Assembly (NCBI RefSeq): GCF_015999245.1 | Contig: NZ_JAEAMR010000006.1 | Span: 80,758 to 144,757 of the forward strand | DNA length: 64,000 nucleotides | Reading direction: 5' to 3' | Source: Streptomyces sp. AV19 | Lineage (GTDB): Bacteria > Actinomycetota > Actinomycetes > Streptomycetales > Streptomycetaceae | Shown here: positions 1 through 11,986 of the stretch, piece after piece | Position numbering within the stretch: position 1 is the stretch's first letter | Layout of the letters: each line of letters starts with the position of its first letter | Notes under the pieces: model-generated | Database searches by the model: none | Seen by the model: the letters and a program-made list of their open reading frames with translations, nothing else | Told to the model about the DNA's origin: nothing | Program-made: the position numbers and the translations under genes

Positions 1-778
1 CAGTGCCGTCCTCGTAGATGCCGATGCGGACCGGCTCGGCGATCGATCCGCCGGGTGAACTGGGCCCGGGGCAGGGCACGGTGTTCTTGAGCAGGTCGTG
101 CGGGACGATCGTCAACTGCGCGCGGGAGGCGGATTCGGGGTCGGCGGTGACGCGGACGGCGTTCTTGGGGACGTCGAGTGCGCTGGCGAGCAACGGGACG
201 GCCTTGGACACGTCGTCCTGGGTGAGCTCACCGCGCGGTAGCTGCAGGTCGAAGGTGGCCTTGTTGGGGGCGACTTCGCTGCGGGCGATCTGGGTCTTGG
301 CCAGGCCGACCTTCTCCAGCAGCCCGCCGTCGGCGCCCGCGGCTCCGATGGCGTCGGGGTTGCGGCGCAGGACCTGGCGGATGTTCCAGGACAGGGCCAG
401 GGCCGGGGCGCCCATGAAGTACAGGCCACCGAGCGGCCCGGCGTCCGGTCCGGCGATGGCCGCCGTGGTGAACCAGCTGGACGCGGCGGCGACGGTGACC
501 GCGGAGTGGAGACGACGCTGGGCGCTGGTGGTCTTGCCCGCCCACCAGGTGACTCCGGTCAGGGCGACGGAGGCGAGGGTGAGACCGGCGGTGGCGGCGG
601 CGCTGTCGGCCCAGTAGTGGTGGGCGGGCAGGGAGGCCAGGCCGGTCCCGGCGCCCGCGAGCCACGGGGGAAGGTGCGGCTTGACGCGGTGCAGCAGGTA
701 TTCGACGACGCCCCCACTGCCGGATGCGGTACGCAGATGTTGCTCGTGGGCCTGCTCGGGGGTGGTGTGCTGGGGCAC
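1..778 (-). CDS. TraB/FtsK-like plasmid transfer protein, N-terminal part
   Basis: The first 259 residues of a protein that runs out of the window. The GTG start at 778 is preceded by GGGAGG. After a short cytoplasmic leader there are about four hydrophobic segments (roughly residues 38-52, 58-80, 91-110 and 114-133), then a soluble part. The ATPase domain with Walker motifs would lie outside the window. An N-terminal membrane anchor followed by a soluble region is the layout of Streptomyces TraB/TraSA, the single FtsK-like DNA pump that moves double-stranded DNA between hyphae. It is the last visible gene of the minus-strand transfer operon. The membrane topology is seen; the TraB identity is inferred from layout and neighbours. 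Confidence 0.6.
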   Translation of the reverse strand, partial: MPQHTTPEQAHEQHLRTASGSGGVVEYLLHRVKPHLPPWLAGAGTGLASLPAHHYWADSAAATAGLTLASVALTGVTWWAGKTTSAQRRLHSAVTVAAASSWFTTAAIAGPDAGPLGGLYFMGAPALALSWNIRQVLRRNPDAIGAAGADGGLLEKVGLAKTQIARSEVAPNKATFDLQLPRGELTQDDVSKAVPLLASALDVPKNAVRVTADPESASRAQLTIVPHDLLKNTVPCPGPSSPGGSIAEPVRIGIYEDGT

Positions 779-872: not shown

Positions 873-1238
873 TCAGCAGTCCAGGAGGTGGTAGGGGAAC
901 GGCTCGTGCTCCATGCGGACGGCGGAAGAGCTGATCCAGTACCAGTGGAAGGGGAAGGAGCGGGCTCTCGGCTCCAGTTCGGTCCGCAGCTCCATAAGGG
1001 CAACGGCCCGGTGATGTCCGTCGGCCACGTACACGTCCGGGTACCGGTCACTGATGCCGAGGATGAGCGGCTCGTGCAGTCCGTGCCTGCGGATCGACTC
1101 CTTCAGCTCCTGGACCTTCGCCCGTTCCTTGTCGCGCCGGTCGAAGTAGCGCATGGCGTCGCGCCACTTGGCGTACTCGGTCGGCCGGATCTGCCGGTCG
1201 TTGAGGAACGACGTCTTCATCTGCCCGCGGTACTTCAT
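873..1238 (-). CDS. ParB/sulfiredoxin-fold nuclease-like protein
   Basis: A 121-aa protein. Residues 40-80 carry the pattern of the ParB N-terminal/sulfiredoxin fold: a helix with IRRHGLHEPLIL, then VYVADGHHRAVAL, where GHHR resembles the nucleotide-binding GxxR of the family. There is no HTH or C-terminal dimer domain, so this is not a full ParB partition protein. Stand-alone domains like this occur in actinomycete transfer operons and may bind or cut DNA or use CTP. It lies 94 bases upstream of the translocase gene and 94 bases downstream of the Asn/Gly-rich gene, in the same direction. Confidence 0.65.
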   Translation of the reverse strand: MKYRGQMKTSFLNDRQIRPTEYAKWRDAMRYFDRRDKERAKVQELKESIRRHGLHEPLILGISDRYPDVYVADGHHRAVALMELRTELEPRARSFPFHWYWISSSAVRMEHEPFPYHLLDC

Positions 1239-1332: not shown

Positions 1333-1920
1333 TCAGCTGTTGAAGTCGAAGCGGCGGCCAGTGGGGCGCTGGCGGCTGCGGTAGGGGGCGAGTTCGGGTT
1401 CGAACTCGCGCTGGAAGGCGGCGTAGGTGGCGGCCATGTTCTTGGCGGTGCCGCGGGCCTCCTCGGCGGCCTTCATCAGGCGCTTGGCGACGCGGCGGGC
1501 GCGCATCCGGGAGCCGAAGGGGTGGCCCTCGGGGTCGGGGATCTCCTTGAGGACGGACTGCAGGACCTCGGAGGCGGCGGCGAGTTCGAAGGAGAGCTGG
1601 AGGAACAGGCCCCGTCCGGCGTCGCAGTAGTTGCGCACGTCGACGTTGGAGAAGAACTCCGGGTCGGCGAGCGGGCTGTGCATGCTGCCGGACTGGCGGT
1701 CGCCCCGGCGGAAGAACCCCGACGTGCCGTTCCCGTTCCCGCGTCCGTTGCCGCGGCCGGTGCCGTTGGCGCCCGGGCCGCCGCCCATGTGGAAGTGGTA
1801 CTGACGGTTGTAGGTACGGTTGCTGGTGCGGGAGCGCTGGTTGTTCGGCGGGGGCTGGAAGCCGCTCCAGTTGCCGCCTGTGTTGCGGCCGTTGCCCTGG
1901 CCGTTGGGGGTGGTCGGCAT
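1333..1920 (-). CDS. Asn/Gly-rich transfer-operon protein (TraA-like)
   Basis: A 195-aa protein. Residues 1-75 are low complexity, rich in Asn, Gly, Arg and Thr (NRTYNRQYHFHMGGG). Residues 85-195 are predicted helical and charged. No catalytic motif is visible. The ATG at 1920 overlaps the stop of the upstream membrane gene in a TGATG junction, so the two are translationally coupled. Proteins of this size and composition sit next to traB in several Streptomyces plasmids and are usually labelled plasmid transfer protein TraA; that label is inferred here from context and composition only. Confidence 0.55.
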   Translation of the reverse strand: MPTTPNGQGNGRNTGGNWSGFQPPPNNQRSRTSNRTYNRQYHFHMGGGPGANGTGRGNGRGNGNGTSGFFRRGDRQSGSMHSPLADPEFFSNVDVRNYCDAGRGLFLQLSFELAAASEVLQSVLKEIPDPEGHPFGSRMRARRVAKRLMKAAEEARGTAKNMAATYAAFQREFEPELAPYRSRQRPTGRRFDFNS

Positions 1921-2432
1921 CAGGCGGTCTCCTTCGAAGTCGGTTCAGGCGAGCGGGCGTTGTGCAGGTGACGCCGCACGGCGTGGCCGGTGATCGTGAG
2001 GGCCAGCCAGAGCAGCGGGAGCGGTCCGGAGAGGGGCCCGTAGGCGATGGCGGCGGCGGCCCAGGCCCCGGCGGTCAGCCAGGCGGCGGCCAGGGCGTAC
2101 CGCCAGGCGCGGACGCGGGTCGCGCACGCCGGCCGCTGCTTCTCGGCCCAGATCAGCCAGGCCGGGCCGACGAGGGCCGCGAGCACGGGGAGGGGCCATA
2201 TCGCGGGCGAGGTCCCGTGGAGGATCGCCGTGCCGAGGAGGGCGAAGAGCGCCAGGAGGGAGGGGAGGAAGGCGCGGCGGCGCTTCCAGGCGGCGCGGCC
2301 GATCGCGGCGGCGGCGCGCTGCTTCCAGGTGCGGTGCTCGGGGACGACGATGACGAGCGGGGTGTGCCGTCCGCCGCGGGACTGCTTGGGGATGCGGACG
2401 GTGGTGATGTCGCGCTCGAACCAGGGGGCCAT
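1920..2432 (-). CDS. Small membrane protein of the transfer operon
   Basis: A 170-aa protein. An N-terminal soluble stretch (WFERDITTVRIPKQ) is followed by about four hydrophobic segments between residues 50 and 155, separated by Arg-rich turns. The ATG at 2432 shares a base with the stop of the GGDEF gene (TGATG), and its own stop overlaps the next start, so it is embedded in a coupled operon. It may be an Spd-type protein that helps plasmid spread along the mycelium, but no specific family was recognised. Confidence 0.6.
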   Translation of the reverse strand: MAPWFERDITTVRIPKQSRGGRHTPLVIVVPEHRTWKQRAAAAIGRAAWKRRRAFLPSLLALFALLGTAILHGTSPAIWPLPVLAALVGPAWLIWAEKQRPACATRVRAWRYALAAAWLTAGAWAAAAIAYGPLSGPLPLLWLALTITGHAVRRHLHNARSPEPTSKETA

Positions 2433-3097
2433 CACCGCACCCCCTCGCGGCCGGGGAGGGAGAAGACGGCGGTGCCGGGGCGGCCCTGGCGGCGGCCGCG
2501 CACCGTGGCGTAGACGTCGGGCTGGATGGCGACCTGCGAGCGGGTGCCGAGGCGCTTGGCCCGGTACATCGCCTCGTCCGCACCCCGCAGCAGCTGCGAC
2601 AGCCCGGCGTTGGGCCGGTCGGACCTGCGGCACAGGCCGATCGACGCCCGCGGGAACAGGCGGGCAGTGCCGACGTCCACGGGGGCTGACAGCTCGCCGT
2701 CCAGCCCGCCCAGGTAGGACAGTTCGTCGTGTGCGTCCGTGCCGGGAGCGAGCCGGACGACGGCGGTGAACTCGTCGCCGCCCAGGCGCGCTGCGAACCC
2801 GTGCCGGGCCTCGCACCAGGTGGCCAGACGCTGGCCTACGGCGGCCAGGACCTCGTCGCCGACGTCGTGCCCGTAGCTGTCGTTGGTGTGCTTGAAGTCG
2901 TCCAGGTCGAGCAGGAGGACGGCGGCGTGCGGGTGCTTGACGGCGCGGCGGGCGCGGGCGGTGAACTCGTCGCGGCACATCAGCCCGGTCAGCGGGTCCG
3001 TGCGGGCGACGCGCAGCCGACGCGCGAGGTACAGGGCGTGCACGGCCCAGCCCGCCACGGGAACGGCAACCGGCAGGGCCTGGATCAGGGGAGTCAT
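2432..3097 (-). CDS. Diguanylate cyclase (GGDEF domain) in the conjugation operon
   Basis: A 221-aa protein with one N-terminal hydrophobic segment (about residues 5-24) and a single GGDEF domain. The catalytic signature is intact: DPLTGL near residue 34, DLDDFKHTNDSYGHDVGD near 64-81 (metal and substrate binding) and RLGGDEF at 104-110. The RxxD inhibitory I-site normally five residues before GGDEF is absent (ARHG there), so product feedback at that site is unlikely. There is no EAL domain. It should make cyclic di-GMP, which in Streptomyces controls BldD and the switch to sporulation. It lies between a DUF2637 gene and a membrane gene within the transfer operon and is coupled to the latter. 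Confidence 0.85.
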   Translation of the reverse strand: MTPLIQALPVAVPVAGWAVHALYLARRLRVARTDPLTGLMCRDEFTARARRAVKHPHAAVLLLDLDDFKHTNDSYGHDVGDEVLAAVGQRLATWCEARHGFAARLGGDEFTAVVRLAPGTDAHDELSYLGGLDGELSAPVDVGTARLFPRASIGLCRRSDRPNAGLSQLLRGADEAMYRAKRLGTRSQVAIQPDVYATVRGRRQGRPGTAVFSLPGREGVR

Positions 3098-3167: not shown

Positions 3168-4481
3168 TCAGGCTGCGGATGGCTCGACCAGCCGGGCGGC
3201 GGCCTCGCGTTCGGCCTTGAGGGCGTCGCGCAGGGCGCGGGCCCGGGACGGGGCGATGCGCAGGGCCTTGCGGATCGCCTCCGCGCTCAGCGCGTCGTCC
3301 GGCCAGTCGGCGGTCAGGGCGCGCGCCTGGGCGAAGAGTTCGTCCTCGGTGCGCGGGGCGGGGGGACGGCGGCTCGATCGGGACAGGCGCCCGGGCGGTC
3401 GGCGCGGTGCCCTGGCACCGAGCGGACGGCTCGATCGCGGCAGCGCCAGATCGAGGGTCATGCCCGGCAACCGGTCGGCCGGGGAGTCGGGCAATGCTGG
3501 GATCGATCCGGGCCGGTCGGGCGCCGATTCCCGCTCGACCGTCATGGATGCCCGGTGCTGCTGCCCGGCCGGGACGGGGCAGGTGGGGCCGACGATCGGG
3601 ATCGGCTGCCAGTCGGCGGACCACAGTCGGGCGGTGATCCGCTGGGCCCCGGTGTCGGCGGCGGTCTCGACGACCTGTCCGAGTCGGCTCTCGGCGGAGA
3701 GTCGGGCGCCGAGCAGATCGGGGGTGAGCCCGGGGGCGGTGCCGTGGTGCACGCGCCAGGCGGTGGCGAACGCGTCCTCCGTCGGGAGGGTGCCGTAGGG
3801 GGCGGCGGTCATCAGCCGGTCGGCTGTCCGGCACACCTTGCGGTGGTGCCACCGGCGCTGGCGGGCATGCCGGGTCCGTTCGCGTTCTTCGCCGGCGGGG
3901 GCGTGGGCGCCGTGCAGGTGCAGCTCCCACATCGCCACCGCGAACAACGACGCCAGCGCCAGGACGACGCCGAGCCACAGCCCGTAATCGCGGCTGCCGT
4001 GCCAGAAGTTGACCCCGGCGGCCAGGGCCGCACAGCCCCAGGTGGCGGCGCGGTACCGGCCGGTGGGACGCCCCTGCCGCGCGGCCTTGGCTGCGCCGAA
4101 CGTCGCCGCCCAGGCCCCGCCTTCGAGCATGACCGCCAGGAGCGCGGCCAGGAGCAGGGCGAGCCCGGCGGTGGACAGTGCGATCACCTGGGAGGCGACG
4201 GCCGGGACGATGGCGCAGGCCATGACGATCGCGGTGCAGATCAGGGCGCCGTTGTCGACCGCCCAGGCCCGCCGCTCACGCTGGCGGGTACGGCGATCGG
4301 CCCGGTCCTGCCGCTTCTCGGCGCGGGCCGCGGCCCGGTCGTCGCGGTCCTGCTCACGCTCCAGGCGCCGGGCCTCCCGTTGCTGGGCGGCGCGCTCGGC
4401 ACGGTCCACGCGGTCCTGCTCGCGCTCGGACAGACGGTCCTGGCGGCGCTGCTCGTGCCAGAAGGCCATGTGCTCGTTCAT
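3168..4481 (-). CDS. DUF2637 membrane protein, SpdB-like
   Basis: A 437-aa protein. Residues 8-72 form a highly charged Arg/Glu/Asp helix, probably a coiled coil. Four transmembrane segments follow at about 78-98, 101-129, 144-160 and 166-186, then a long Arg-rich cytoplasmic tail ending in a helical region (residues 395-437) that resembles a winged-helix turn. This is the DUF2637/Spd architecture common on Streptomyces conjugative plasmids and AICEs, where Spd proteins help distribute the element across septa. The start overlaps the upstream stop as ATGA. The specific role is inferred from family and context. Confidence 0.7.
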   Translation of the reverse strand: MNEHMAFWHEQRRQDRLSEREQDRVDRAERAAQQREARRLEREQDRDDRAAARAEKRQDRADRRTRQRERRAWAVDNGALICTAIVMACAIVPAVASQVIALSTAGLALLLAALLAVMLEGGAWAATFGAAKAARQGRPTGRYRAATWGCAALAAGVNFWHGSRDYGLWLGVVLALASLFAVAMWELHLHGAHAPAGEERERTRHARQRRWHHRKVCRTADRLMTAAPYGTLPTEDAFATAWRVHHGTAPGLTPDLLGARLSAESRLGQVVETAADTGAQRITARLWSADWQPIPIVGPTCPVPAGQQHRASMTVERESAPDRPGSIPALPDSPADRLPGMTLDLALPRSSRPLGARAPRRPPGRLSRSSRRPPAPRTEDELFAQARALTADWPDDALSAEAIRKALRIAPSRARALRDALKAEREAAARLVEPSAA

Positions 4482-5119
4482 GCCGCGGCTCCCATGGACT
4501 CGTCGCGGGGAAGGGCGATGTGGGTCAAGTCGGCGTAGTGGGCGGCCTGCTCGCCGGTGAGGTGTCCGTGATCGTCGATCGCTCCGGCCAGGCGCGGGAC
4601 GCGGTCCCACAGGTGGGACAGGGCCGCGTCGGCCGCCCGGTGGACGACGGCGAGGTCCAGGCCAGCGGCAGGGCTGTGCCCGTACCCGAGGTCTCCGCGG
4701 TTGCAGAACCGCAGGGCCTCGGTGACCTTGTCGCGGTCGTCGGCGGCGAGGCGCTCGACCACCCAGGCGCGATCAGGCGTCCACAGGCCCTGCTCACGCA
4801 GCCATCGGTTCTGGGCACGTTCCCCGGCCGCGCACATCGCGATGAACTGGGCATAGGGGACGGAGAAGTTGCCGCCGGCCTTCACCCACGCAGCGCCGCC
4901 CTCGCCGGGTCCCTTGCCGAGGTCGTCGCAGAGGTGCACCTCGCCCACAGGAATGCCGAAAGCGAGGTACAGCACGGCGTGGCCGGCCTCATGGACCGCG
5001 ATGAACCGGCGCAGTACCGGGTCGGGGAAGTCCAGGACCGCGTAGGTGCTGTTCCAGCGCTGCGGTTCGGGGTGGCGGGTGTAGACGGGCTTGTCGGAGT
5101 TGAGGTGCCAGGTGTTCAC
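4478..5119 (-). CDS. HExxH metallopeptidase-like protein (M41-like)
   Basis: A 213-aa protein. Residues 40-50 read FIAVHEAGHAVLY, a zinc HExxH motif (His43, Glu44, His47) in the same setting as FtsH-type M41 peptidases, but there is no AAA ATPase domain and no membrane segment. A third metal ligand may lie further on, in the helix around DRDKVTEALRFC. The GTG start at 5119 overlaps the upstream stop (GTGA), and the stop overlaps the next start. Such soluble M41-like proteins recur in actinomycete mobile elements; the substrate is unknown. Confidence 0.65.
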   Translation of the reverse strand: MNTWHLNSDKPVYTRHPEPQRWNSTYAVLDFPDPVLRRFIAVHEAGHAVLYLAFGIPVGEVHLCDDLGKGPGEGGAAWVKAGGNFSVPYAQFIAMCAAGERAQNRWLREQGLWTPDRAWVVERLAADDRDKVTEALRFCNRGDLGYGHSPAAGLDLAVVHRAADAALSHLWDRVPRLAGAIDDHGHLTGEQAAHYADLTHIALPRDESMGAAA

Positions 5120-5583: not shown

Positions 5584-6060
5584 TCACTCCTCGTCCGGAC
5601 ACGGACGGGTGCACTCGCCCACGCAGCGGGGGCTCAGGGCCGTCTCCAGCTCGAAGCCCAGGACGTACTCGTCACGGAGCTCGACTTCCGTGTGGCTCCC
5701 GCAGGGGCAGGAGTACAGGAGGATCAAGCGGTCGTGGTATCCGCCCCAGGGGTCGGATACCGGCCTGGAGACCTCGCAGATCAGGAAGATGCCGTTGCCG
5801 AGGTGGGCGACGGCCATGGGCGGCTGGCCCTCCCCGCCGGACGGGTAGCCGCGCCAGGCTTCCGGGGCCAGGACCTTGGCCAGGGTGTTCCGGAACTGGC
5901 GGCCAACGGCGTCGCGGGCCGACATGACGGCCTCGCGCCGCTCGCGGTCCTCGCGCTCCTGGCGCAGCCGCTCGTCCGCAGCGTCCACCGCCGCCTGGTG
6001 CTCGGCAGCCAGGGCGAGGAGAACGGCCAGCAGCTCGGCCGGGGTGTCGAGGGTGGTCAT
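5584..6060 (-). CDS. Hypothetical protein with C-terminal cysteine cluster
   Basis: A 158-aa protein. Residues 1-60 are a helical, charged region likely to form a coiled coil (DAADERLRQEREDRERREAV). Residues 75-130 look beta-rich. Cysteines occur as CPCG near residue 119 and C..C...C near the end (RCVGECTRPCPDEE), possibly binding zinc. The ATG at 6060 overlaps the stop of the exonuclease gene (ATGA). Function is unknown; it is co-translated with the exonuclease. Confidence 0.55.
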   Translation of the reverse strand: MTTLDTPAELLAVLLALAAEHQAAVDAADERLRQEREDRERREAVMSARDAVGRQFRNTLAKVLAPEAWRGYPSGGEGQPPMAVAHLGNGIFLICEVSRPVSDPWGGYHDRLILLYSCPCGSHTEVELRDEYVLGFELETALSPRCVGECTRPCPDEE

Positions 6061-6800
6061 GATTGCTTCCCCTCCGGGGAGTTGATGGTCTGGGGCACGT
6101 AGGGCCAGCGGCCCTCGATGTGGGCGGTGGGGTCGGTGCGGCGCCGGTAGGCCTGCAGGCTCGCCGCCTGCTGCGCGGCCCGTTCGACCTGCAGGGCGTG
6201 CAGGGCGTCCAGCTCCATGGCACCGAGGTGCGGGTAGGTGCGGCCGATGCGCCAGGCCAGGCGTGCGGCGGCGAAAGCGTCGGCGTTCGGGTCGTGCTGC
6301 TTGTCGTGCCGGACCTGCCAGTGCGCGCACAGATCCGGGAGCTGGCGGGAGCCGCGGCGGTAGGGCTGGACCTGCTTGTCGAGGACCAGCGGGTCGATGA
6401 CCGGCGCCAACTCCCGCGACAGAAGCCGGTCCGGGAGCGTTGGCAAGTCATACCGGCGGCACTCGCGGTCCAGCAGGGTCAGGTCGAAGCGGGCATTGAA
6501 GACGACCAGCGGCCATCCCCCGTCCATCTGCAGCCCGAGCCAGTCGGTGATCTCACCGAGGACGGTGGCCGGGTCCCGGCCGTCGGCGCGGGCCTGGTCG
6601 GTGGTGATGCCGTGCACGGCCGTCGCCGCCTGCGGGATCTCCACGCCGGGGTTCACGAGCCACGTCGCGATCTCGGGTTCCCGCCCGGCGCCGACGAGGG
6701 CGACGCAGGCCGCGACGATGCGGTCCGTCGCCCAGTCGGTGCCGGTGGTCTCGGTGTCGAAAGCGATCAGACGGCCGTCCGGCCACGAGGTGGTGGTCAC
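6057..6800 (-). CDS. DnaQ-like 3'-5' exonuclease (DNA polymerase III epsilon type)
   Basis: A 247-aa DEDDh exonuclease. ExoI is FDTETTG near residue 13, followed by HGITTDQA. ExoII is VVFNARFDLTLL near residue 107, and ExoIII is HDPNADAFAAARL with the paired His and Asp. There is no polymerase domain. The GTG at 6800 overlaps the stop of the 41-aa zinc protein (GTGA) and is preferred to an upstream in-frame ATG, which lies inside that gene. It should remove nucleotides from DNA 3' ends and is often carried by AICEs, perhaps to trim or proofread element DNA. Confidence 0.85.
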   Translation of the reverse strand: MTTTSWPDGRLIAFDTETTGTDWATDRIVAACVALVGAGREPEIATWLVNPGVEIPQAATAVHGITTDQARADGRDPATVLGEITDWLGLQMDGGWPLVVFNARFDLTLLDRECRRYDLPTLPDRLLSRELAPVIDPLVLDKQVQPYRRGSRQLPDLCAHWQVRHDKQHDPNADAFAAARLAWRIGRTYPHLGAMELDALHALQVERAAQQAASLQAYRRRTDPTAHIEGRWPYVPQTINSPEGKQS

Positions 6801-7323: not shown

Positions 7324-7680
7324 TCAGCGGCCGTGGCGGCGCCCGGACTGCCCCTCGCTGAGCAGCGACCGCAGCACCACGGCGACGACGGCGATGGCGA
7401 GCGCGGTCACAGCGGCCGAAATCGCGACCACGGCGACGGACAGCACCAGCGCCACGAGGACGACGCCGACGCCCAGGGCGCCGGCCGCCCCGACCGCGAG
7501 GGCCGTGCCCGGCGACCACCGCACCGCACCGCGCTCGGCGGAGCCGGAGCGGTCGCAGTGGCACGCCGCGCAGTGGTGGCCGGCCGAACGCTGGACGGGG
7601 GCCGGGGGCGGGAAGAGCTGCCGCCCGTAGGCGTCGAAGACCGGCGTGACCTGCGGCTCGTGCGGAGTCGGGGTGCTCAT
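7324..7680 (-). CDS. Two-TM membrane protein with N-terminal Cys/His motif
   Basis: A 118-aa protein. Residues 1-35 are Pro-rich and end in HHCAACHC, a possible metal site. Two strongly hydrophobic stretches follow (about 50-75 and 78-103), then a short basic tail ending GRRHGR. The ATG overlaps the WhiB stop (ATGA), so it is expressed with WhiB. Layouts with a Pro-rich head and two membrane segments are common among Spd-type spread proteins, but the family was not identified. Confidence 0.55.
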   Translation of the reverse strand: MSTPTPHEPQVTPVFDAYGRQLFPPPAPVQRSAGHHCAACHCDRSGSAERGAVRWSPGTALAVGAAGALGVGVVLVALVLSVAVVAISAAVTALAIAVVAVVLRSLLSEGQSGRRHGR

Positions 7681-8003
7681 GCCGCGAGCTCCTTCCTCCG
7701 CAGGGCCCGGCGCTCCTCGGCGGTCAGCCCGCCGAAGATCCCGAACCTCTCCCCGTTGGCCATCGCCCGCTCCAGGCAGAGCTCGACCACCTGGCACCGC
7801 CCGCAGACCTGCTTGGCGGAGTCCACGAACCCCGGGAGGGCCTCGAAGAAGATCTCCGGGTCCTCACCACGGCAGGCCGCCAGGTCCAGCCACGACAGAT
7901 CATCACGCGACCCGGAGGACACGACGGAGACCGGGTACGACTGCACCGCCACCAGCAACGCCCGTCGCATGCCGCGCAGGTTGTGGGAACGAAGCGAGGC
8001 CAT
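7677..8003 (-). CDS. WhiB-family iron-sulfur transcription factor
   Basis: A 108-aa protein with the full WhiB signature: four cysteines (AACRG, CGRC, ELCLE) for a 4Fe-4S cluster, the turn FGIFGG (usually GVWGG) and a basic C-terminus (ERRALRRKELAA). The ATG at 8003 begins one base after the upstream stop and is chosen over an upstream in-frame start. WhiB proteins act with the principal sigma factor to sense redox or nitric oxide. A plasmid- or element-borne copy heading the transfer operon is a likely regulator of the conjugation genes, as seen in other AICEs. Confidence 0.85.
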   Translation of the reverse strand: MASLRSHNLRGMRRALLVAVQSYPVSVVSSGSRDDLSWLDLAACRGEDPEIFFEALPGFVDSAKQVCGRCQVVELCLERAMANGERFGIFGGLTAEERRALRRKELAA

Positions 8004-8686: not shown

Positions 8687-9454
8687 ATGGCGAACGAACG
8701 GCTCCGCAGCGCCATCGTGGCCAGCGACATGACCATGGATCAGGTAGCTGCACGCATCGGTGTCGATCCCAAGACGGTCGAGCGTTGGATCAACGACGAG
8801 AAGAGGAAGCCCTATAGGCGGTCGCAGTACGCCCTGGCGAACCTGCTCCGGAGGGACGTCTCATACCTCTGGCCCGAAGAGCGGACGGCGGGCGAGGTAC
8901 GCGCAGCCGGCCAGGCGGAGCTGGTACGGCTCTACCCTCACCGTGCGGTCGCACCAAGGGAGTTCTGGCCCGACCTCTACGCGAAGGCCACCCGCGCCTT
9001 TGACGTCCTGGTGTATTCGGGCTTCTGGCTGAGCGAGGACCCCGCGTTCTTCAAGGTGGTGAAGGAGAAGTCGGCCGACGGCGTCCCCGTCCGCTTCATG
9101 CTCGGCGATCCCGGCTGTCTCGCGGTGGCCCAGCGCGGGGAGGACGAGGGCATCGGCACCGGCATGGCGGGCAAGATTCGCAACGCGTTGGTGAACTACG
9201 CGGGGCTGTTCGGGTTGCCGGGCGTCGAGTTCCGCCTGCACTCCACGACGCTGTACAACTCGCTCTACCGGGCCGACGACGAGATGCTGGCCAACGGGCA
9301 CATCTACGGCGTGGGTGCCTACCTCGCCCCGGTGCTCCACCTGACCCGGGTGCCGGGCGGCGAACTCTTCGACTCGTACGCTGAGAGCATCGAACGTGTT
9401 TGGCAGGGGGCCCGCACGATCAACAGCCCCCACGAGCTGGGAGCGGCGGCATGA
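8687..9454 (+). CDS. XRE-family regulator with PLD-like DUF5919 domain
   Basis: A 255-aa protein. Residues 1-50 form a helix-turn-helix (DQVAARIGVDPKTVERWIND). The rest matches the DUF5919 layout, a phospholipase-D-like fold: a strand with FDVLVYSGFWL, VPVRFMLGDP, then a segment around LHSTTLYNSLYRADDEMLANGHIYG where family members place catalytic-like residues. GAGGGAG precedes the ATG at 8687. The stop overlaps the Nudix start (ATGA). In AICEs this pair is recurrent; the protein probably represses or senses a signal for element genes. Enzymatic activity of the PLD-like part is unproven. Confidence 0.7.
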   Translation: MANERLRSAIVASDMTMDQVAARIGVDPKTVERWINDEKRKPYRRSQYALANLLRRDVSYLWPEERTAGEVRAAGQAELVRLYPHRAVAPREFWPDLYAKATRAFDVLVYSGFWLSEDPAFFKVVKEKSADGVPVRFMLGDPGCLAVAQRGEDEGIGTGMAGKIRNALVNYAGLFGLPGVEFRLHSTTLYNSLYRADDEMLANGHIYGVGAYLAPVLHLTRVPGGELFDSYAESIERVWQGARTINSPHELGAAA

Positions 9455-9924
9455 GTCGGACCGACTATTTCCACGACCCCGAGGCGCCGGCGGCCAACTC
9501 CGTCGTCCCGTCGGTCACCGCGGTCGTACGGAACGAGGCCGGGGACATCCTGCTGATCCACAAGACCGACAATGACCTTTGGGCCTTGCCCGGCGGCGGC
9601 CACGAGATCGGCGAGTCCATCGCGGACACGGTGGTGCGCGAGGTCGAGGAGGAGACCGGCATCCGCGTCGAGGTCCTGGACGTGAGCGGCCTCTACACCG
9701 ACCCCGGCCACGTCATGGCCTACGACGACGGCGAGGTCCGCCAGCAGTTCTCGATCTGCTTCCGCGCCCGCCCGGTCGGCGGAGAGCTGCGGACGAGCAG
9801 CGAATCCAAGGAAGTTCGCTGGGTTCCGCCGACGGACCTGGACGGCTTGGACATCCACCGGTCCATGCGCCTCCGCATCGAGCACGGCCTCGACGGCCGG
9901 CAGGAGCAGCCCTACATCGGCTGA
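9451..9924 (+). CDS. Nudix hydrolase, candidate Pif-like immunity factor
   Basis: A 157-aa protein with a complete Nudix box near residues 49-71: GGGHEIGES, then REVEEETGI, fitting GX5EX7REUXEEXGU. It should hydrolyse a nucleoside-diphosphate-linked substrate. It is translationally coupled to the XRE gene and overlaps the HD gene on the other strand by 13 bases. The established parallel is pSAM2 Pif, a Nudix-motif protein that gives immunity against incoming copies of the element; the position in an AICE regulatory cassette makes that role plausible here, but this is inference. Confidence 0.8.
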   Translation: MSRTDYFHDPEAPAANSVVPSVTAVVRNEAGDILLIHKTDNDLWALPGGGHEIGESIADTVVREVEEETGIRVEVLDVSGLYTDPGHVMAYDDGEVRQQFSICFRARPVGGELRTSSESKEVRWVPPTDLDGLDIHRSMRLRIEHGLDGRQEQPYIG

Positions 9925-10478
9925 GGCACACCGACGGCGGCAAGCCTGCGGCTGACGCGCTCGCTCGCCGCGAGGATCTCCGGCTCGGCCCGTCGGATGA
10001 AGCGCCCGACGACGCTGTCCGCACCGTACCGGCCGACGATCTCGGCGACGCGGTCGGTCGGGTTGGTCGGATCGCCGTCGGGTGTGGTGGTCATATCGCA
10101 GTACAGCAAGGCGTCCACCAGGTGCGGCTGCTCCAACGCGAACTCATCCTCAATCTGCTCCCGTAGCCCGCGCTCCTCGGCCTCCAGAAGCGCGCATGTG
10201 TGGTGAGCGACGAGCCGGACGACGCGCTCGTCGGCATGCTCAACGCCGCGCAGGAACCGGGCACCGTCGAGGGGATGAAAGCCGGTATCCCGGAGTCGCG
10301 GCGAGTACCCGATGTCGTGGAGCACGGCGGCCGCTTCGAGCAGCTCGGCGTCGTCGCCCAGGACCGGGGCCAGCCCCCGGGCCCGCGCCTGGACGCCGCA
10401 GGAGTGCGCCCACCGCCGCGGAAGCGGCTCGGCCAGCAGGGACTCGGCAAGTTCGTGCGCCCAAGCGATGAGTTCCAT
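9912..10478 (-). CDS. HD-domain phosphohydrolase
   Basis: A 188-aa protein with the HD superfamily motif: an N-terminal helix with WAHSCGV, then AAVLHDIGYS (the His-Asp pair) near residue 53 and later ARFLRG and VRLVAHHT, followed by a final Asp-bearing helix (VDALLYCDMTTT). It probably hydrolyses a phosphate ester of a nucleotide. It converges on the Nudix gene (13-base overlap) and is 11 bases downstream of the GntR gene, so is probably transcribed with it. HD genes beside GntR and Nudix genes are typical of Streptomyces integrative elements. Confidence 0.75.
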   Translation of the reverse strand: MELIAWAHELAESLLAEPLPRRWAHSCGVQARARGLAPVLGDDAELLEAAAVLHDIGYSPRLRDTGFHPLDGARFLRGVEHADERVVRLVAHHTCALLEAEERGLREQIEDEFALEQPHLVDALLYCDMTTTPDGDPTNPTDRVAEIVGRYGADSVVGRFIRRAEPEILAASERVSRRLAAVGVPQPM

Positions 10479-11824: not shown

Positions 11825-11986
11825 TCAGCCCAGCAAGGCGCCTTGAACTCCAAGCAGACGAAGAAGCTGCTGGTAGCCGGCCAGGGTGTCATCGATCCGG
11901 AGCTTGGCCGCCAGCTTCCCGCTGTCGTCCGCCAGGGCCACGTCGTGGTGCCCTTCCGCCCAGTCGATCCCGCAGTAGATGGTCAA
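11825..11986 (-). pseudogene. IS110-family transposase, N-terminal fragment
   Basis: On the minus strand, from a TTG at 11986 preceded by a G-rich ribosome site, the frame reads MTIYCGIDWAEGHHDVAL and continues ADDSGKLAAKLRIDDTLAG for 53 codons before a stop. GIDWAEGHHDVAL is the start of the RuvC-like DEDD domain of IS110 transposases (first catalytic Asp in GID). The remaining roughly 350 residues are missing. It is a truncated remnant that cannot transpose by itself. Confidence 0.75.

Follow-up and report, generated by a model that had tools for sequence, protein, structure and literature searches.

The Locus and Its Genes

The window, a 64,000-nucleotide stretch of DNA from a 7.52-Mb Streptomyces genome (contig C68, positions 80758-144757), contains a gene for a GGDEF-type diguanylate cyclase on its minus strand (window 2432..3097) that starts with ATG and encodes 221 amino acids with a hydrophobic N-terminal helix and a GGDEF domain. 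The next gene upstream encodes a DUF2637 protein of 437 amino acids (3168..4481, minus strand; Pfam DUF2637, E = 4.4e-07), which bears out a sequence-only reading of the window that had placed the cyclase in a transfer operon with DUF2637. The translational coupling claimed in the same reading holds on one side only: the end of the GGDEF gene shares a 4-nt overlap with the downstream gene, whereas 70 nt separate the end of the DUF2637 gene from the first base of the GGDEF gene. The downstream gene (1920..2435, minus strand) encodes a 171-aa protein without a Pfam match that has a homologue at the same place in a related locus (L043), and is followed on the same strand by genes for a 195-aa transfer-operon protein (1333..1920; no Pfam match, homologue in L043), a 121-aa protein with weak ParB_N-like similarity under the curated cut-off (873..1238) and TraB (C68:79508-81535, the 5' part being window 1..778). 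Upstream of the DUF2637 gene, the minus strand encodes a 213-aa operon protein without a Pfam match (4478..5119), an RNase_T-type exonuclease of 247 amino acids (6057..6800; E = 6.2e-16) and, upstream of the GGDEF gene like these, a WhiB-like transcription factor of 108 amino acids (7677..8003; Pfam Whib, E = 1.9e-20). An XRE-like HTH regulator (8687..9454; HTH_3 just below the cut-off) is encoded divergently from the operon on the plus strand together with a NUDIX protein (9451..9924; E = 5.2e-22), and an HD-domain protein (9912..10478; E = 2.3e-12) lies on the minus strand.

To the left of the window, the contig carries a Prim-Pol replication gene (C68:78453-79352; E = 6.5e-37), its neighbor encoding a 616-aa protein without a family match, a gene for an HTH/Xis-like protein (HTH_17) and an integrase gene (C68:74829-76085). 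The integrase matches Phage_integrase with 23.4 bits (E = 5.5e-05), below the Pfam cut-off of 27.1, and falls into one cluster with integrases from other loci, among them one with a score of 91.4 bits. Judged by this gene set (integrase, HTH/Xis-like, Prim-Pol, TraB, DUF2637, WhiB-like, NUDIX and HD), the GGDEF gene is part of an actinomycete integrative conjugative element (AICE). The ends of the element are undefined because neither a tRNA gene (in the window or in the loci L010 and L011) nor bracketing direct (att) repeats (in C68:72001-92000, beyond which the element may extend) were found. Frames resembling pieces of IS110-type transposases were seen by eye on both sides of the element (window 11825-11986 and C68:73530-74588).

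The traB gene of the window element matches NF041214 (plasmid_TraB) in two pieces, at positions 1-289 and 345-639, with one in-frame TAG between them that lies outside the window and splits the gene. The interruption means that the element perhaps no longer transfers; it may be transfer-deficient, or the draft sequence may be in error at the TAG. An intact TraB is encoded in L043 and L051 (914.5 and 892.6 bits, cut-off 800). The first of these loci has a similar operon with a GGDEF protein 69% identical to that of the window, and a tRNA-Ser gene close to its integrase gene. As a control, all nine GGDEF genes of the window genome were located, and only that of the window lies <10 kb from one of the two DUF2637 matches.

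The Predicted Enzyme

The window protein matches the Pfam GGDEF family (PF00990) with 109.9 bits (E = 1.4e-31; curated cut-off 23.8). The two motifs on which the sequence-only reading had based its claim of a catalytically complete domain were both found, and the RLGGDEF motif as well as D64, N72 and D81 are present and conserved in the family described below. An AlphaFold2 model built with 43 family sequences has a GGDEF fold (mean pLDDT 90.3, pTM 0.80) into which a helix of residues 3-31 leads, and a tail of low confidence after about residue 190. The first-ranked PDB structures in a Foldseek search with the model were DgcB, PleD and a Thermotoga maritima GGDEF domain, diguanylate cyclases among them, and a sequence search of the PDB agrees (49 distinct sequences at E <= 0.001). 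The metal and guanine-contact roles of D64, N72 and D81 were assigned through PleD numbering, in which we take D81 to be D344, the guanine-contact aspartate. Hypr-type cGAMP specificity was judged unlikely because D81 is invariant in the family, and we infer that the protein makes c-di-GMP.

The RxxD inhibitory site is missing, as had been noted from the sequence, so that feedback through an I-site was ruled out for the window cyclase, and none of the 100 scorable family members (those of the 101 aligned in which the GG(D/E)(E/Q)(F/Y) motif was located) has RxxD at this place. The window enzyme is thus predicted to be probably feedback-insensitive. The N-terminal helix has a hydropathy of 1.61, a value of 1.6 being reached by 24 and a value of 1.2 by 81 of 101 family members; with this borderline hydropathy, the cyclase is probably anchored in the membrane. 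The 16 residues that follow the helix carry a mean charge of +2.9 (101 family members), and this positive charge suggests that the enzyme domain of the family is cytosolic.

A Family of Cyclases within the Genus

A search of 295 genomes from the genus, in which up to 10 candidates per genome were scored, found related proteins in at least 105 (E <= 2e-26, own genome counted); matches near 1e-21, which lie in long frames as far as listed, are excluded from this count. The window and 100 of the about 150 matches listed, chosen mostly by rank, make up a set of 101 loci, each with flanks of up to 10 kb. Several of these loci end at contig edges, and four had GGDEF genes that were absent from the gene calls and were added back. 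Since the loci were collected by similarity to an element-borne protein, the set is biased toward element-borne copies. The 100 other members are 39-69% identical to the window protein (median 47%). Eleven positions (D64, F68, K69, D73, G80, D81, R104, G107, D108, E109 and F110) are invariant in all 101, N72 is kept in 100, and the helix displays a W-x-x-H motif in which W17 is present in 101 and H20 in 100 members. A single locus (L053) has SGDEF instead of GGDEF.

In a class-wide search of 394 genomes, with up to seven candidates scored in each, all those with E < 1e-28 among the matches listed fall within the genus. A phage collection yielded distant GGDEF matches (85 records, two of which span 80% of the query), and a TraSA-like protein was found on plasmids in four records. 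Seven chromosomal members (L044-L049 and L050), 61-69% identical to the window protein, have no transfer genes within 10 kb; one of this group lies in the window genome itself (C79:285142). Five of the seven adjoin a gene for a small secreted-looking protein (cluster c69), and the group nests with window-type element copies in a midpoint-rooted tree; this chromosomal gene is perhaps domesticated. In L045 and L047, a longer GGDEF-similar protein (706 and 682 aa) is encoded one gene off, about 2 kb upstream of the chromosomal gene. A third family member of the window genome (L142) is located in a plasmid-type context on contig C23 (114.5 kb).

Recurrence in Transfer and Spread Operons

Conserved GGDEF genes on Streptomyces elements, for which the sequence-only reading had suggested a survey, were indeed found next to transfer genes: within about 10 kb of the GGDEF gene, a TraB/FtsK-like gene is present at 74, a replication-type gene at 68, a DUF2637 gene at 67 and an integrase gene at 56 of the 101 loci, as counted from similarity clusters typed through representatives. 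At least two of the integrase, TraB/FtsK-like and replication genes are present at 71 loci. An overlap of exactly 4 nt joins the GGDEF gene to its upstream neighbor in 48 and to its downstream neighbor in 35 loci. The TraB/FtsK-like clusters comprise Pfam FtsK_SpoIIIE (29 loci), plasmid TraB (5 loci) and, as the largest, a weakly FtsK-like cluster (41 loci), and the replication clusters comprise Prim-Pol, RepSA, P4-type primase, DUF3987 and one cluster without a type.

The GGDEF gene commonly occupies one of two operon slots, DUF2637-GGDEF-RRQRL-FtsK-like or traSA-like-DUF2637-spdB-GGDEF-repSA. The loci were divided into types by gene content (individual loci may miss listed genes, and six loci of type D were set by hand). 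Type A (45 loci) contains genes for DUF2637, GGDEF, an RRQRL zinc protein, a 740-aa FtsK-like protein, Prim-Pol, an Xis-like protein and Int. The 740-aa protein, which a public record names FtsK, is weakly FtsK-like, with a best score of 24.7 bits and all scores under the cut-offs. Type B (pSAM2-like, 29 loci) contains genes for GntR, FtsK, DUF2637, SpdB (PF05122, E = 8.1e-29), two small proteins, GGDEF, RepSA (853 bits, cut-off 700), an Xis-like protein and Int. The remaining loci are plasmid-like (type C, 14 loci), of the window type (5 loci), chromosomal (type D, 6 loci) or without a type (2 loci). An 18.4-kb circular plasmid of Streptomyces sp. NBC_00562 constitutes a complete type A element, including an integrase gene and the same operon. 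The element types cluster in the protein tree (13 label changes against a mean of 48.7 after shuffling) yet are not monophyletic, suggesting that the GGDEF gene was mostly inherited with its element lineage, with some exchange.

The cyclase gene is, by these comparisons, an optional but recurrent part of the transfer or spread operon of Streptomyces elements and plasmids. Among 38 genomes (G000-G037) taken from the genus search with its up to 10 scored candidates per genome, a family member lies within about 5 kb of 5 out of 16 type A FtsK-like matches (two fragments excluded), 4 out of 8 window-type TraB matches (own element counted) and 2 out of 60 near-full-length RepSA matches (at least 400 of 438 positions). 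A truncated RepSA (G017, contig C605) also has a family member nearby. Furthermore, 15 neighborhoods of sibling elements, picked mostly for showing no GGDEF in the genus search and in some cases ending at contig edges, were searched by tblastn with nine family members as queries: 14 had no GGDEF gene and one (L235) had it. At L225 and L236, the slot in which the GGDEF gene would be expected is closed, the DUF2637 and RRQRL genes sharing a 4-nt overlap there. Absence from closely related elements had been named as evidence against a role for the gene in the element; the gene recurs on many of them, but its lack in 14 of the 15 siblings fetched speaks against a general necessity.

CdgD and pCdgG of Streptomyces venezuelae

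One genome of the set (G015) has eight GGDEF genes whose positions agree with the vnz numbers published for the eight such genes on the S. venezuelae chromosome (PMC6205966; R-squared 0.9996). At the position of cdgD (vnz19760), this genome carries a family member (L241:9891-10421) within a complete pSAM2-type element. The gene row, read by similarity to the typed clusters, consists of a divergent GntR gene and genes for a 112-aa protein, FtsK, DUF2637, SpdB, two small proteins and CdgD, followed by genes for a zinc protein, RepSA, an Xis-like protein and the integrase. Its position in such a row indicates that S. venezuelae CdgD is the product of an element gene, the strain being identified by gene positions. 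CdgD and the window protein are 49% identical and share the W-x-x-H helix and the GGDEF domain, which places them in the same family. Like the family, CdgD (vnz19760; SCO5345 of S. coelicolor; SSFG_02343 of S. ghanaensis) is a stand-alone GGDEF protein without an I-site, encoded in an operon whose genes have no known function. It differs in its published status, which in the available text of PMC7911125 and PMC6205966 is that of a host cyclase with no element mentioned; the latter paper calls CdgD-like proteins stand-alone and cytoplasmic, and its pan-genome survey did not include plasmids. PMC3218068 refers to an element called Sco5349, whose number is near enough to that of SCO5345 to give a hint, and no more, that the gene lies near it.

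S. venezuelae CdgD is 87% identical to its relative in L115, from which it differs by an in-frame 18-nt deletion between short direct repeats. The six residues lost lie just past the DPLTGL motif and include a conserved aromatic position. In addition, the residue in front of the invariant W is R where the family usually has G, and the Pfam GGDEF match begins at profile position 20 instead of 1. CdgD-FLAG was hardly detectable and a cdgD mutant had no phenotype in S. venezuelae (PMC6205966). The six-residue loss and the R-for-G change may explain both observations, and S. venezuelae CdgD may be inactive, which would bear on the published null results.

A further family member is pCdgG, identified as the annotated GGDEF gene of an S. 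venezuelae plasmid (NZ_CP018075, where the locus tag differs from pvnz37430), with a GW-x-x-H helix, a GGDEF domain and 77% identity to L120. Its plasmid region resembles the family loci in having TraB/ParM, DUF2637 and RRQRL genes; it differs in the plasmid context, in WhiB and Lsr2 genes downstream and in having no integrase annotated in the stretches covered. WhiB genes are located two places downstream of the GGDEF gene on this plasmid and on pFRL2 (L240), and on the latter plasmid a further gene, about 4 kb upstream of the GGDEF gene, has been assigned to the Pycsar system effector family (4142-4630), which brings two cyclic-nucleotide themes together in this region. The WhiB-like genes near GGDEF genes fit an element that touches host development and prove nothing.

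Relation to Known Elements

The family elements share an integrase, an Xis-like protein, Prim-Pol or RepSA, an FtsK-like TraB, spd genes and a NUDIX protein with elements of the pSAM2/SLP1 type. SXT/R391 elements resemble them in being integrative conjugative elements with diguanylate cyclases, DgcL and DgcK; they differ in being Gram-negative and in using type IV secretion. The sequence-only reading had stated that some elements of Gram-negative bacteria carry such enzymes. The dgcL gene is described as variable cargo that SetCD does not activate along with the transfer genes (PMC4344509), whereas the Streptomyces gene is located inside the transfer operon. The Pif protein of pSAM2 is a NUDIX protein, and an mdp-nud-xre cluster has been described for Sco5349 too (PMC3218068). 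The terms GGDEF, diguanylate and c-di-GMP do not occur in the main text of two element surveys (PMC9513070 and PMC3218068), and none of the titles and abstracts listed by searches of an open-licence library connects cyclases with the conjugative elements of actinomycetes. New, as far as these listings reach, is the recurrence of a cyclase inside actinomycete spread operons, with CdgD as a member; the enzyme itself is of a known kind.

Possible Roles of the Element-Borne Cyclase

The reading we favor, and on which we are evenly divided, is that these elements raise c-di-GMP while spreading and thereby hold the mycelium vegetative. The switching on of the transfer operon would let the anchored cyclase make c-di-GMP, the host receptors BldD and the sigma-WhiG anti-sigma factor would then keep sporulation genes off, and the mycelium would stay vegetative while the element spreads, which would make the cyclase one cause of the developmental delay visible as pocks. 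We infer expression at transfer, global action via BldD and a benefit to the element. The window genome contains one match to the BldD C-terminal domain, with the RGD-x8-RQDD motif, which we take to be the c-di-GMP motif of BldD. Overexpression of cdgD in S. ghanaensis and, by citation, S. coelicolor delays or abolishes aerial mycelium, and activity of S. coelicolor CdgD is likewise reported by citation (PMC7911125). When an element spreads, the recipient mycelium develops and sporulates with a delay that shows as pocks, by which Streptomyces conjugation has been recognized by eye since 1982 or earlier (PMC9513070 and work cited there). Pock formation needs three to six spd genes, and no predicted Spd protein resembles a functionally characterized one (PMC4170104). 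With a recurrent cyclase in the spread operon, the pock phenotype would have an enzyme and a signal behind it, together with receptors that are already known, and if the proposal is true, the manipulation of c-di-GMP by conjugative elements extends to Gram-positive, spore-forming hosts.

Several observations argue against this developmental role. To our knowledge, plasmid pIJ101 has no GGDEF gene. Derivatives of pIJ101 nevertheless form pocks (PMC4170104), the gene is optional, the traB of the window element is interrupted, and S. ghanaensis and S. venezuelae mutants without cdgD are unaltered in morphology (PMC7911125 and PMC6205966). The increase in moenomycin after cdgD deletion in S. ghanaensis, which is opposite to the effect of two other cyclases, and the bias of the locus set toward element-borne copies also count against it. 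The earlier suggestion that the element keeps its host vegetative is upheld in part, by the complete cyclase without an I-site in a conjugation operon, the outcome of the survey, the BldD motif of the host and the arrest of aerial development on overexpression of CdgD orthologues. The siblings that lack the gene and the normal morphology of the deletion mutants speak against a general necessity. A BldD box was absent from the window element (L011) at up to one mismatch to the consensus, and was not enriched in 53 operon promoters compared with shuffled ones (three against one at one mismatch, 19 against 20 at two). A BldD box in the element was rejected on the ground that the best promoter match is no better than shuffled. 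The far-reaching form of the proposal, in which c-di-GMP made by the spread-operon cyclase on entry fixes BldD and the complex of sigma-WhiG with its anti-sigma factor in the repressing state, the cyclase is a molecular cause of pocks and CdgD is a parasite's tool, is offered tentatively and with more doubt than conviction.

The main rival is local signaling within the membrane apparatus, in which the anchored cyclase would act on DUF2637, Spd or TraB proteins or on septal cross-walls and tune spreading with little global effect; we consider it unlikely, if a serious contender. It would account for the near-invariant W-x-x-H motif of the N-terminal helix and for DUF2637 as a direct operon neighbor, and it is consistent with the deletion of cdgD in S. 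ghanaensis, which raises moenomycin while the loss of two other cyclases lowers the antibiotic, a result that led the authors to propose local signaling in a CdgD micro-compartment (PMC7911125). However, development does stop when CdgD is overexpressed, and the W-x-x-H helix is also preserved in the chromosomal copies of type D, which have no DUF2637 or TraB gene within 10 kb. A c-di-GMP receptor encoded by the element itself was not recognized either, as Pfam found no known receptor domain in the window proteins scanned (three small operon ORFs lie outside the scan). The changes in moenomycin and, by citation, actinorhodin production that are ascribed to CdgD (PMC7911125) could also be read as the effect of cargo that alters antibiotic production or stress behavior for the benefit of the host and has no part in transfer. 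The optional nature of the gene and the persistence of the chromosomal group apart from transfer genes fit such a role, which we regard as improbable in view of the position of the gene inside the transfer or spread operon, often with 4-nt overlaps, and of its repeated occurrence at this operon slot across several element backbones as well as plasmids.

That the gene is a decayed passenger whose protein is inactive or unexpressed appears very improbable. The in-frame stop in traB of the window element, the six domain residues missing from S. venezuelae CdgD and the scarcely detectable CdgD-FLAG protein (PMC6205966) would all be in line with decay. Against it, the window copy is full length and has kept every catalytic residue, and the dN/dS values of the family (median 0.20, range 0.10-0.47 in 60 sampled out of 230 close pairs) indicate that it is under purifying selection.
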